Shown here: one piece after another, positions 4,933-25,001 of the stretch
Position numbering within the stretch: the first letter of the stretch is position 1
Layout: every line of letters starts with the position of its first letter
Translations under genes and position numbers: made by a program
The notes under the pieces: model-generated
Seen by the model: only the letters and a program-made list of their open reading frames with translations
Told to the model about the DNA's origin: nothing
The model's database searches: none
NCBI GenBank assembly: GCA_002730985.1
Contig: PCBP01000054.1
Coordinates: 1-26,097, forward strand
Direction of reading: 5' to 3'
Origin: Flavobacteriales bacterium
Lineage (GTDB): Bacteria > Bacteroidota > Bacteroidia > Flavobacteriales > BACL11
Length of the DNA stretch: 26,097 nt

Positions 4933-5964
4933 TTAGGACTTAAAAGCTAAGGGATCTTCATTTAATAGCTTAAATTCGGTTCTTTTTTTATGAATTTCAC
5001 AAGCCATAAATACAGCTTCTCTAAATGACTGCTCATTTGCAAGGCCCTTTCCCGCAATTTCATATGCGGTACCATGTACGGGTGATGTTCTGATTATGTT
5101 TAATCCAGCTGTAAAGTTTACTCCGTCATAAAAAGATAATGTTTTAAAAGCTGTTAATCCTTGATCGTGATACATTGAAAGTATTCCATCAAAATTTCCC
5201 AAATTTTTGCTAGTAAAGAAACTGTCTGCAGGGTAAGGTCCAAAAGACATGATGCCTTCTTTTTTTAGTTCTTTAATTGCAGGAATAATGCATTTGTTTT
5301 CCTCTTCACCAAGCAATCCATTTTCTCCGGCATGAGGATTAAGCCCTAGAATAGCGATTTTTGGCATTCTAACACCAAAATCTTCAATTAAGGAAGTGTT
5401 TAATTTTTTAGTTTTTAAAATTATATTTTTAGTAGTAATGGCTTTTTTTACTTCTGTTAAGGGAATGTGTCCTGTTACAAATGCAATTTTCATTTTCTCA
5501 CTTGCCATTATCATTAAAGATTCTCCCTCAAAATTACCTTGTAAAAATTCAGTATGACCAATAAAATTAGTTATCTTATCTTGAATTGATGCTTTGTTAA
5601 TTGGCGCAGTAACAAGCACATCAATTTCTTTGTTTTTTAATGCATCTGAAGATTTCTTTAAGGAATTGAACGAAAGCTCTCCTGATTTAGTAGTTGCTTT
5701 ACCAAAGTTAATTTCTATATCTTCATTCAAGATATTTAGTAAATTCACTCTTTTAGGATTAGCATCTTTTATGTTATTAATGAGATTAAAATTAAAGTCC
5801 TGCATTAGAATTGCTTTTCTGTGGATAGAAGCAACTTTTGATGACCCAAATACAATTGGAGTGCAAAAATCCATCATTCTAATATCTTTAAAAGTCTTTA
5901 TGATTATTTCTAATCCAATCCCATTTAAATCTCCAATTGAAATACCTACCTTTATTTTTGACAT
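4933..5964 (-). CDS. pdxA: 4-hydroxythreonine-4-phosphate dehydrogenase
   Basis: This 343-residue protein belongs to the PdxA family, which oxidises 4-phosphohydroxy-L-threonine in the DXP-dependent route to pyridoxal 5'-phosphate. The three metal-binding histidines of the family are visible at H166 (VTGHIP), H211 (NPHAGENG) and H266 (MYHDQG), the same numbers as in the E. coli enzyme. The GHTEFL segment (H137) is also present. Its ATG overlaps the pepA stop (TAATG), so it is coupled to pepA. A promoter-bearing gap separates it from yceD. Confidence 0.97.
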   Translation of the reverse strand: MSKIKVGISIGDLNGIGLEIIIKTFKDIRMMDFCTPIVFGSSKVASIHRKAILMQDFNFNLINNIKDANPKRVNLLNILNEDIEINFGKATTKSGELSFNSLKKSSDALKNKEIDVLVTAPINKASIQDKITNFIGHTEFLQGNFEGESLMIMASEKMKIAFVTGHIPLTEVKKAITTKNIILKTKKLNTSLIEDFGVRMPKIAILGLNPHAGENGLLGEEENKCIIPAIKELKKEGIMSFGPYPADSFFTSKNLGNFDGILSMYHDQGLTAFKTLSFYDGVNFTAGLNIIRTSPVHGTAYEIAGKGLANEQSFREAVFMACEIHKKRTEFKLLNEDPLAFKS

Positions 5965-9131: not shown

Positions 9132-10043
9132 ATGAAACCAACATTATTAATTTTAGCAGCAGGAATGGGTAGTCGTTATGGGGGCTTAAAGCAAATAGAT
9201 GGTATTGGGCCAAATCAAGAACCAATAATTGAGTATTCAATATATGATGCTGTAAATTCAGGATTTGGGAAAATTGTATTTGTTATTAGAAAAGAATTTG
9301 AAGAAGCATTTCGTGATCGTTTTGATCAGTTTACTAATCGCATTCAAATAGAATATGCATATCAAGAGGTAAATATAAAAGTACAGGGGATTACTATTGT
9401 AGAAAGAAAAAAGCCTTGGGGAACTTCGCATGCAGTACTGGTTGCTAAGGATCTAATTAATGAGCCATTTGCCGTAATTAATGCTGATGATTATTATGGC
9501 TCAGGTTCTTTTAAGCTTATTGCTGATTTTCTAACTAATGAGTGTTCCTCATCGTTAATGTCTATGATAGGATATACTTTGCATAATACTTTGTCTGATC
9601 ATGGCACAGTAAATAGAGGCGTGTGTGAGGTGGATGCAGTAAATAATCTTATTGAGGTTGTAGAGCGTACAAAAATTGCAGATCAGAACGGAATAGTACA
9701 GTATAATATTGGCTCTGATCAACCATTAGGTATTTTGGATGGAAACGCAAGTGTTTCTATGAATTATTGGGGTTTTCATCCATCTATATTTTTAGAAATA
9801 GAGAAAGGGCTACATAATTTTATTAGTAAAAATCATGATAATCCAACTGCGGAGTATTATATACCTAATATTGTCACTGATATGATTGTAAGTGGACAAA
9901 TGACTGTGCGTGTAATCCCAACAAATGATAATTGGTTTGGAGTAACTTATAGGCAAGATAAACCTATGGCAATAGATGCAATAAGCAAGTGTATTGCCGA
10001 TGGAGTTTATCCAAAAAAACTTTGGAGTCAAGATGAGAAATAA
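9132..10043 (+). CDS. Sugar-phosphate-type nucleotidyltransferase
   Basis: The 303-residue protein has a GT-A-like nucleotidyltransferase fold. The N-terminal nucleotide-binding loop [11 protein letters not shown] (8-18) is followed by a lysine at 20, and a metal-binding INADDYYG segment has aspartates at 119-120. This matches a family common in Bacteroidetes that is annotated only as nucleotidyltransferase or NDP-sugar pyrophosphorylase. The true sugar substrate is unknown; the phosphotransferase often found beside it is not here. Its last 11 bp overlap the purT start, so the two are translationally coupled, but no metabolic link to purT is evident. Confidence 0.85.
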
Positions 10044-21572: not shown

Positions 21573-21599
21573 TGCGGTGAGGAAGGGATTCGAACCTTT
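21573..21599 (-). other. attL: 3' fragment of a tRNA-Ser gene
   Basis: On the minus strand this is a T-loop TTCGAAT (21594-21588), the T-stem 3' strand, the acceptor strand CCTCACC (21582-21576), a G discriminator and CA. The G discriminator and the CCTCACC acceptor fit tRNA-Ser. The T-stem has one A-C mismatch at 21597, and no D-arm or anticodon arm follows to the right. It is therefore not an intact tRNA but the remnant left by integration into its 3' end. The core shared with the tRNA is probably 21573-21596. Confidence 0.75.
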
Positions 21600-21702: not shown

Positions 21703-21726
21703 AAACCGACAACAAAACCGACAACA
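21703..21726 (+). repeat. 12-bp perfect tandem repeat upstream of int
   Basis: AAACCGACAACA occurs twice without a gap (21703-21714, 21715-21726), about 30 bp before the integrase gene. Spacing of 12 bp is near one helical turn. It is a plausible arm-type site for the integrase or an operator. Confidence 0.7.
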
Positions 21727-21739
21727 ATAAATATTTGTT

Positions 21740-23081: not shown

Positions 23082-23759
23082 ATGCTAACAAAAGAAGAAA
23101 CTAAAAAAATAACAAGTCTATTAAAGCAAATAGCGTTGTTTGTAGATTTTGAACAGAATACATCACTAACCTTTGATAGAGATGTGAATACTTTGTTAGA
23201 GACTTTCTTAGATTTAGAAAATGAGATTACTGCCTTAAAATTATTAATTAATGGATTAAACGCTATGCTATTGCGACCAATAGAGAAAGAAATTGATTTT
23301 GAAGTATATATACGCCAAGACTATTGGAAAGATGACCCTGATCGTATATTATTTTTAATAGAGAAAAGAAAAGAGTTTGTTGATGCAAATTTACTTAAGC
23401 TCAATAATATTCTTGAGAAAAAATTGATTTTGAATAATGATGTTAACTCAAAAGATGATGTCTTAAGCCCCGATTTAAATACATTGCAAAATAGAACAAA
23501 AATATTATTACTTCAAGAGTTGGGTGTTTTAGATTTTTTAAAAAAGAAAGTACCATTTAAGAACAGTACTAATTTAGCGAAACTAATTGCTGAATTAATA
23601 AGTGGAAAGAATGATGATATAAATTCGGTATATGAATCGATAAGAACTGATTTATCATATGTTACTCATAAAAATCAGTCTAAATCACCTTATACAAAGC
23701 CCCAAATAAAGAAAGTAAATTCAACTTTAGCATCATTTTCCTTGCCTCTAATTAAGTAA
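23082..23759 (+). CDS. Unknown element protein downstream of int
   Basis: The 225-residue protein is mostly alpha-helical and rich in L, K, D and N, with no signal peptide or membrane segment. The last third (about 140-205) contains ILLLQELGVLDFL followed by ...LAKLIAELISGKNDDINSVYES, which resembles the C-terminal end of proteins found next to integrases in Bacteroidetes elements. I recognise no catalytic motif. It starts 22 bp after int, so the two may be co-transcribed. A role in regulating or assisting excision is an inference from position only. A 6-bp hairpin follows its stop. Confidence 0.75.
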   Translation: MLTKEETKKITSLLKQIALFVDFEQNTSLTFDRDVNTLLETFLDLENEITALKLLINGLNAMLLRPIEKEIDFEVYIRQDYWKDDPDRILFLIEKRKEFVDANLLKLNNILEKKLILNNDVNSKDDVLSPDLNTLQNRTKILLLQELGVLDFLKKKVPFKNSTNLAKLIAELISGKNDDINSVYESIRTDLSYVTHKNQSKSPYTKPQIKKVNSTLASFSLPLIK

Positions 23760-23787: not shown

Positions 23788-23810
23788 TATCCCCTTTTTA
23801 TCCCCTTTTT
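23788..23810 (+). repeat. Overlapping direct repeat TATCCCCTTTTT before the HTH gene
   Basis: TATCCCCTTTTT occurs twice with an 11-bp period (23788-23799 and 23799-23810). The C-runs stand out in an A/T-rich region. They lie about 45 bp before the HTH gene and could be binding sites for that protein or the integrase. Confidence 0.5.
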
Positions 23811-24269: not shown

Positions 24270-24281
24270 TTGATTAATCAA
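24270..24281. promoter_or_regulatory. 12-bp perfect palindrome before the replication gene
   Basis: TTGATTAATCAA is its own reverse complement and lies 21 bp before the ATG at 24303. Its place fits an operator for the replication gene. It lies in the 165-bp gap after the HTH gene, which otherwise holds nothing I recognise. Confidence 0.45.
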
Positions 24282-24302: not shown

Positions 24303-25001
24303 ATGAAGTACACTATATATATAAACCAAAAAGAATTAAGTAAAACAGATTTTGATTTAGTTGATGGGGCAATTCTAGATTATCTTTATTTTATATGTAA
24401 TAGTAAAAATGAGAAAATAGAAGAACAGAGGATTAATGGCTACACTTGGGTAGATTACAATAAGATCCTTACTGATAATCCATTACTTAAAATTAAATCA
24501 AAAGGTGCTTTAAGTAGAAGGGTCAAAAAAATGGAAGAGTCAGGGTTTATCAAATTAAAAGAAAGAAGAAAGAATGGTCATAAACTCAAGTATTTTTCTT
24601 TAACTAAAAAATCTGATAGCCTATTCACTCAAACTCACGACCCTATTCACGAGAATGAAAACCCTATTCATTTAAATTCATACCCTATTGACGAGGATGA
24701 ACCTATAAGTACTATTAAAGATTATACTAATAAAAATAATATTATAAAGATAAAGACAGGGCGCTCTCAATTAAAACCAACTATTGATGATGTTAAATTA
24801 TATTGCCTAGAAAGGAATAATAACATAGATGCAGAAACTTTTTTTGATTTCTATGAAAGTAAAGATTGGTTGGTAGGTAAAAACAAAATGAAGAATTGGA
24901 AGGCTTCTGTAAGAACTTGGGAGAAAAGAGAACATAAAAATAATAACACAACATCACATAGGCATCAGAAAGGTGCAGACTATGGTGATGGTACATTTTA
25001 A
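24303..25001 (+). CDS. Replication initiator (phage replisome-organizer type)
   Basis: I chose the ATG at 24303 (232 residues), since the conserved sequence begins there and the earlier ATG lies before the palindrome. Residues about 15-105 form a winged-helix DNA-binding domain (KSKGALSRRVKKMEESGFIKLK). A linker of about 108-136 contains three PI-containing units of about seven residues (PIHENEN, PIHLNSY, PIDEDE). The C-terminal domain ends with an FYESKDWLVGKNKMKNWKASV motif, seen in phage replication proteins and DnaD-like loaders. It should bind the origin and recruit the helicase loader. The linker DNA carries the repeats at 24619-24701. The next gene, 12 bp on, is the loader. Confidence 0.8.
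   Translation: MKYTIYINQKELSKTDFDLVDGAILDYLYFICNSKNEKIEEQRINGYTWVDYNKILTDNPLLKIKSKGALSRRVKKMEESGFIKLKERRKNGHKLKYFSLTKKSDSLFTQTHDPIHENENPIHLNSYPIDEDEPISTIKDYTNKNNIIKIKTGRSQLKPTIDDVKLYCLERNNNIDAETFFDFYESKDWLVGKNKMKNWKASVRTWEKREHKNNNTTSHRHQKGADYGDGTF
24619..24760. other. Putative replication origin inside the initiator gene
   Basis: The core CCTATTCAC or a close variant begins at 24620, 24642, 24663, 24684 and, shortened, 24702, giving periods of 22, 21, 21 and 18 bp. Right after it comes an almost pure A/T stretch (24705-24760). Iterons followed by an unwinding element within the initiator coding sequence is the arrangement of the lambda origin in gene O. The repeats encode the PI-rich linker, so coding drift could also explain part of the periodicity. 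Confidence 0.65.

Follow-up and report, generated by a model that had tools for sequence, protein, structure and literature searches.

Do the direct repeats in the middle of a predicted replication initiator gene serve the protein, as a linker, or the DNA, as the replication origin of the element that carries them? The question is raised by one end of the window, by which we mean the whole 26,097-nucleotide stretch analysed, where integrase, initiator and helicase-loader genes lie beside a tRNA fragment (Table 1). Sequence comparison makes it, in our judgement, highly probable that an integrated mobile element has its replication origin at 24620–24760, inside its own initiator gene and in the part that codes for the linker.

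An element beside a tRNA gene end

The element is integrated, its integrase and excisionase-like genes adjoining a tRNA 3′ end. Elsewhere in the genome a tRNA-Ser(GCT) has a 3′ end that differs from this tRNA fragment by one mismatch, and no whole tRNA gene was found within the window. The other end of the element was searched for and not found; it lies beyond the contig, which ends 0.5 kb past the loader gene. The element may be a satellite, a prophage or of another kind; the hallmarks of a satellite are present, namely an integrase, a probable att site at a tRNA, and genes for excision and replication. The interval from the tRNA fragment to the integrase gene contains a tandem 12-bp repeat, AAACCGACAACA (window 21703–21727), perhaps a set of arm-type integrase sites, and a tandem TATCCCCTTTT is found at window 23788–23810, immediately 5′ of the HTH_17 gene. 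The 225-aa ORF had no Pfam match above cut-off and nothing in PHROGs or NCBIfam at E <= 1.

The initiator is best read from its ATG at 24303, the frame being open also up to a TTG at 24270. The sequence-only reading had placed a DnaC-like loader 12 bp downstream of the initiator stop, and both the spacing and the identity were borne out, the two PHROGs families matched (phrog_3277 and phrog_50) being annotated 'DnaC-like helicase loader'. We take the helicase-loading function of this product from the family name. It matched no Pfam family above cut-off and no solved structure at E <= 0.1.

Table 1 Features of the element in the window (positions are those of the window).
Feature	Position	Strand	Basis or remark
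tRNA gene 3′ end, 23 bp	21574..21596	-	Probable left attachment site of the element
Tyrosine integrase, 434 aa	21755..23059	+	Phage_int_SAM_5 and Phage_integrase above Pfam cut-off
ORF of 225 aa, integrase / excisionase-like interval	23082..23759	+	No function assigned by profiles
HTH_17 / excisionase-like DNA-binding protein, 94 aa	23853..24137	+	HTH_17 and TIGR01764 above cut-off
Replication initiator, 232 aa	24303..25001	+	Homologues, phrog_15768 C-terminus, predicted fold
Winged-helix DNA-binding domain, codons 1-108 (predicted)	24303..24626	+	AlphaFold2 model
Iteron 1	24620..24637	+	CCTATTCAC, exact; codon frame unlike that of copies 2-4
Iteron 2	24642..24659	+	CCTATTCAC, exact; repeat search
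Iteron 3	24663..24680	+	CCTATTCAT; repeat search
Iteron 4	24684..24701	+	CCTATTGAC; repeat search
Degenerate fifth copy and A/T-rich stretch	24698..24760	+	CCTATAAGT at 24702; candidate unwinding element
Three-helix C-terminal domain, codons 161-214	24783..24944	+	Common to initiators with other N-terminal types
DnaC-like helicase loader, 194 aa	25014..25598	+	phrog_3277 E 2.8e-18, phrog_50 E 1.2e-14

Predicted fold of the initiator

The AlphaFold2 model predicts a winged helix of MarR/PadR-like fold (helices 9–12, 19–32, 37–42, 52–58, 67–80 and 102–108; wing strands 83–90 and 93–100), followed by a disordered linker in which the array sits and by the three-helix domain. This predicted order agrees with the earlier proposal of a winged helix before the repeats and a C-terminal organizer domain after them, the latter being a small helical domain in the model. 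The C-terminus matches phrog_15768 (E 2.3e-21 over residues 136–222), a family annotated 'unknown function'. Viral fold matches of the model carry the names replication initiator or replisome organizer, and both RepA_N plasmid initiators and DnaD are found among tied rows of the fold comparison.

Comparison of the model with the PDB by Foldseek returned nothing at E <= 0.001, and the initiator profile matched no solved structure at E <= 0.05. The arrangement had also been called lambda-like, a description that holds for the layout but not for family membership, as the initiator gave no match to Phage_rep_O in Pfam, PHROGs or NCBIfam at E <= 1. The RepA_N profile PF06970 likewise had no match at E <= 1. 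Array DNA compared with phage records yielded only weak A/T-rich matches, and plasmid records one weak protein match.

The iteron array and its repetition at the nucleotide level

Four copies of CCTATTSAY are followed 18 bp on by a degenerate fifth. The starts given in the sequence-only reading (24620, 24642, 24663, 24684 and 24702, with periods of 22, 21, 21 and 18) were all recovered when the sequence was re-read, and Tandem Repeats Finder reports a single 42-bp array (24620–24701, score 115). The word CCTATTCAC occurs four times in the 1.37-Mb genome, two of these in the array, and its reversed control pattern seven times. With one mismatch allowed, six occurrences were found across the window against 4.8 expected, so such words are not over-represented; what is unusual about them in the window is their clustering. 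Dyad symmetry within the iterons is weak, with 54% complementarity at the best centre and 34% at the next best (21 distinct iterons), and a perfect palindrome, TTCATAATTATGAA, is found only in the final iteron copy of the group A phages described below. The segment TGAACCTATAAGTACTATTAA at 24698–24718 is found again next to the array in phage contigs.

An A/T-rich unwinding element had been proposed inside the coding region after the repeats. The stretch is there, with an A/T content of 0.81 for 24702–24760, compared with 0.62 within the array and 0.74 in the part of the gene that precedes it; a role in unwinding is plausible on this composition, the contrast being modest and not extreme.

Iterons 2–4 double as the protein heptads PIHENEN, PIHLNSY and PIDEDE, seven codons making 21 bp. 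The repetition might then belong to the protein, as a proline-rich heptad linker that grew and shrank by slippage and owes its likeness at the DNA level to recent duplication. The in-frame heptads of copies 2–4 are consistent with such a linker, as are the range of heptad copy number in homologues of the same type (2 to 5) and the near-perfect, recent expansion in the homologue P0014 (PVAEKEK x5). Iteron 1, however, is read in a different frame (AGC CTA TTC ACT, or S L F T), so no protein repeat explains it, and the codons of D, N and Y that precede iterons 2–4 end in C in all three cases.

Because copies 2–4 are heptads, a protein-level cause had to be excluded, and synonymous codons were therefore permuted inside the initiator gene with the protein kept (5000 permutations). 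This comparison had been put forward as a check in the sequence-only reading, and the gene passed beyond every permutation when scored at lags 20, 21, 22, 42 and 43, which like the motif were picked after the array had been seen: the summed self-match was 48 against a permutation mean of 33.3 and maximum of 46. Four copies within one mismatch arose in 4/5000 permutations, and the best score over all lags, which is blind to that choice, gives a more modest result, being equalled by 81/5000. In the family survey described below, with 200 permutations, the window gene had p = 0.03 and stands outside the 53 strong cases.

The closest homologue for which DNA was available, on a Flavobacteriales MAG contig (L091), keeps the out-of-frame copy 1 as CCTATTCA, with CTA TTC retained though both flanking residues differ from those of the window (S/C and T/I). 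Where the two proteins have the same residue, codons are identical at 29/31 positions in codons 106–150 and at 97/123 elsewhere (p = 0.07). On L091 no loader gene was found 3′ of the initiator in the 1.4–1.9 kb left on the contig. A palindrome, AGAGAGCTCTCT or AGAGAGCTTTCTCT, lies 3′ of the A/T-rich stretch on L091 (about 5450–5480) and in the group B inserts L278, L277 and L257; it is degenerate in the window and encodes ERALSF in initiators.

Repeats across the initiator family

Protein search recovered 659 initiator relatives at E <= 0.001. Among the 120 matches listed, 86 have the same N-terminal type as the window initiator and 34 do not. Comparison of homologous initiators, also suggested beforehand as a check, came out in favour of the array: at least two in-register heptads are present in 83/86 proteins of the same N-terminal type against 3/34 with another N-terminus. 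The three heptad-poor exceptions are P0003, with one proline replaced, and two distant proteins, and the three heptad-bearing proteins in the other set have lost most of the N-terminal domain. P0014, P0029 and P0069, seen as protein, have other heptads at the same place (PVAEKEK x5, PIRENEK x4). P0081, also seen as protein only, has the N-terminal domain and array fused to a tail resembling the sequence after the array in group B; judged from this sequence, it is perhaps a gene caught at a capture junction.

For a survey at the DNA level, 250 loci were reduced to 231 complete ORFs, 226 of them 150–420 aa long, and to 151 after removal of near-duplicates. Repeats beyond synonymous permutations (p <= 0.005) were found in 53/151 initiators sharing the C-terminus, against 3/151 control ORFs from the same loci; the other 98 initiators fall short of that threshold. 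The repeats start at 35–60% of the gene in 48 of the 53 strong cases, and 21/53 have a lag of 21–25 bp, many others being short-period A/T-rich repeats. Mid-gene repeats are thus a family trait, and the repeat sequence tracks the N-terminal DNA-binding type. Marine initiators of HTH_36 type, for example, have two GGGTATTAAAGAAAA words spaced 24 bp, a second iteron type that accompanies an N-terminal type other than that of the window. A scan for this pair returned 119 stretches, or 78 distinct sites once copies with the same flanks were removed; all 78 lie inside initiator frames (three cut by a contig end), one of them with the same N-terminus and a different C-terminus.

When 52 genomes of the family were scanned for the paired array word with one mismatch, two occurrences each were found in G000 and G012, in initiator genes, and G033 and G004 had a single occurrence apiece; the control, with the pattern reversed, gave one match. 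A related initiator in another Flavobacteriales MAG (L307, 1865–3057) lies close to a whole tRNA-Asp gene, with no loader gene in the 1.9 kb up to the contig end. Two phage initiator-like genes also contain CCTATTCA arrays spaced 21 bp apart (L520 near 5783–5853, minus strand; L523 near 9934–9962, plus strand). The codon frame of the word differs in L520, where it is translated as YSPHEPP and may be a convergent iteron.

Arrays in phage contigs without the matching gene

Viral contigs were scanned for two iterons in tandem, which gave seven contigs, and for the final iteron together with the A/T-rich sequence beside it, which gave eight, six of them also in the tandem set. In total nine phage contigs carry the array, six assigned to group A and three to group B. 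When the criterion was relaxed to a pair of CCTATTCA words at a spacing of 21 bp, the scan returned 33 stretches, among them the nine known contigs; the other 24 stretches were without the A/T-rich motif. The N-terminal domain of the window type is absent from all nine contigs (tblastn of residues 1–105, E <= 1), and when the viral collection was searched for relatives, none of the best 80 matched residues 1–42.

The group A arrays, of three or four iterons with the A/T-rich stretch, occupy the interval from the structural operon to a divergent gene, and stop codons interrupt the array in some contigs (L256, L258, L260). The contigs that reach far enough (4/6) encode elsewhere both a DnaC-like loader and a complete initiator, the latter with a different N-terminal type. 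The slot is about 100 bp from a 33-bp block with the dyad GTTGC/GCAAC, ATAGAATATACTGTTGCTCATATCGCAACTAGC, which lies next to the structural operon (L279 1747–1779 and 18 other contigs) and is possibly an operator or packaging site. The 19 contigs found through this block comprise six with the array, seven with a short slot and no insert, one that is cut off, three with another repeat-like insert and two with other short inserts. The type of the phage's own initiator is identical with and without the array, and the own initiators of array-free G412 and array-bearing G401 are 95% identical. Five slot pairs were aligned. Two showed a single difference of 103–104 bp (L258 against L302 and L297), that between L258 and L302 being a 104-bp insert with flanks identical at 91/100 and 136/137 positions; in the three remaining pairs the alignment broke the difference up, the longest pieces being 38, 62 and 86 bp. 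The slot, fixed 5′ of the block, is empty in some phages and in others filled by the array or by a different repeat-like insert (TTTCACTTCC-TTTCCATT), as seen in L258, L302, L298, L299 and L306. Comparison of the inserts of L298, L299 and L306 with initiator genes gave short, chance-level matches only.

The group B insert, which adjoins a phosphoesterase-like gene, combines two to four iterons with the A/T-rich stretch and the AGAGAGCTTTCTCT palindrome. The array was found beside this gene in 3 of 80 relatives retained out of 528, the downstream region being readable in 45. The site is empty in the 98%-identical relative L319, and L320 differs from L319 by 145 bp (flanks 197/211 and 104/107). 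Groups A and B share distantly similar genes (e.g., 54–68% over 50–57 aa; 22–37% over 38–68 aa), and their arrays are 71–77% similar over 76–98 bp. They are distantly related phages with different slots; separate acquisitions are not implied.

A probable origin within the initiator gene

Since the array is found in phages that lack the cognate domain, and relatives have empty sites, it works as DNA. DNA that persists in intergenic slots apart from its reading frame, and is present in one phage but missing from a close relative, acts in cis. Its location, after the DNA-binding domain and ahead of the loader gene, makes an origin the simplest interpretation. These gene-free arrays with empty sites in relatives are the strongest support for the embedded origin, which withstood the checks put forward beforehand as far as sequence allows. 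The protein-only heptad reading, very improbable in our estimate, was dropped in view of the shuffles, the out-of-frame copy and the copies that lie apart from any gene of the window type, some of them with stop codons inside.

The winged-helix protein might instead regulate its own operon, or in the phages late or early genes, with the array as its operator and not an origin. A MarR/PadR-like fold would suit a regulator, as would the slots, that of group A lying between divergent genes and that of group B beside promoter-like sequence. An origin nevertheless explains better a site in mid-coding position that always comes with, and moved together with, an A/T-rich stretch, in a mid-gene layout repeated in many relatives, and we regard an operator as highly unlikely.

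We hypothesize that the origin operates as follows. The winged-helix domain would bind the four iterons, which at spacings of 21/22 bp would lie on one face of the helix, and the resulting nucleoprotein complex would open the A/T-rich stretch that follows. The C-terminal helical domain could then deliver the site to the product of the gene 12 bp downstream, the DnaC-like loader, and this would load the replicative helicase of the host. Because linker and origin occupy the same DNA, repeat number and sequence can drift in the protein even as the DNA word is preserved. The array with its A/T-rich flank is a self-contained cis module, found alone as a cassette of about 100–145 bp that is present or absent in phage intergenic regions.

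What the cassette does for a phage is a guess between decoy and auxiliary origin. As a decoy, it would soak up the initiator of a competing element and block replication of that element. Ectopic lambda origins arrest lambda (PMC4488673), and cloned TP901-1/Tuc2009 origins confer phage-encoded resistance (PMC8965321). The presence and absence of the cassette among near relatives, and the other type of the phages' own initiators, are also in keeping with a decoy. That the window element competes with phages is, however, an assumption, and the cassette is in few phages (6/19 and 3/80), so that we hold this role to be possible but doubtful. As an auxiliary origin, the cassette would let the phage be replicated by the initiator and loader of a resident element. 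A titration site alone would not need the A/T-rich flank that is kept with the iterons, or the palindrome that follows in group B, which favours this role, yet it requires the element to be present in the same cell, and we consider it rather unlikely.

The array might also serve the phage directly, as its own origin or within its packaging site, since the group A slot is near the conserved 33-bp block beside the structural operon. Against this, own initiators of the same type occur with and without the array, as in the 95% identical pair, and the block is in all 19 contigs while the array is in six and the group B slot lies elsewhere. We judge this reading unlikely. As candidates, the group A phages' own origin was rejected because array presence is independent of their own initiator, and a common packaging site because the window has no copy of the block and group B has its slot in another place.

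Comparison with known systems

The origins of lambda and Stx phages lie in the middle of O and have 4 or 6 iterons (PMC7466680). As in the window, lambdoid O-ori-P modules (lambda, P27, 933W) have iterons and an A/T-rich tract in mid-initiator gene with a loader gene next, and repeat number varies, which in the lambdoids lengthens the protein (PMC7466680). The window element differs from them in its lack of a Phage_rep_O match, in a loader that is DnaC-like and not lambda P, and in repeats of 21–22 bp with a weak dyad in each iteron. In the P335 phages TP901-1 and Tuc2009, direct repeats within the cognate organizer gene (ORF13 and ORF16, respectively) act as origins and interfere with the phage when cloned, and in the lactococcal r1t a DnaC-like loader is next to the organizer, again as here (PMC8965321). 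The lactococcal P335 systems belong to another sequence family and host phylum, and the origin described here exists also as a gene-free phage cassette.

The RepA_N plasmid pSK41 resembles the window in having central repeats in its initiator gene, with four Rep boxes in rep and a dispensable encoded linker (PMC5703833). Unlike pSK41 and PLE RepA, the window initiator has no RepA_N profile match and is accompanied by a separate DnaC-like loader, and the PLE origin is intergenic. PLE origins covary with the DNA-binding domain, which a phage nuclease mimics (PMC8263062, PMC7145576). That nuclease, the anti-satellite Odn of ICP1, is comparable in that a phage bears a piece of another element's replication module (PMC8263062), but Odn is a DNA-binding domain fused to a nuclease, whereas the phages here carry the origin DNA itself. 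PICMI satellites were also considered (PMC10803314).

With lambda, TP901-1/Tuc2009 and pSK41 in print, the embedded layout is already known; what is new is that phages carry such an origin as a cassette without the gene. A literature search, mostly outside subscription journals, found neither an initiator-embedded origin of a Bacteroidetes element nor phages with another element's origin minus its gene. The earlier suggestion that such an origin is undescribed in an integrated Bacteroidetes element therefore stands with respect to print, but the layout itself is not singular, being common in relatives and published for Gram-positive phages and plasmids.

Implications

The known layout is extended here to a widespread, unnamed initiator family in which DNA-binding domain and iterons are exchangeable, and whose members include those of integrated elements in marine Flavobacteriales. 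For origin prediction in uncultured phages, mid-initiator nucleotide repeats beyond synonymous expectation are the feature to seek. The embedded origin may be portable DNA in a conflict between mobile elements: phages of the same waters may more than once have taken up or kept the element's origin, gene-free and in fixed intergenic slots, as a decoy or as a second origin driven by the initiator of the element, which we think quite possible though somewhat short of probable; if that conflict reading is true, cassette-bearing and cassette-free alleles segregate among near-identical phages. The present-or-absent cassettes are natural test pairs for the question of whether origins are traded, or serve as decoys, between phages and other mobile elements.
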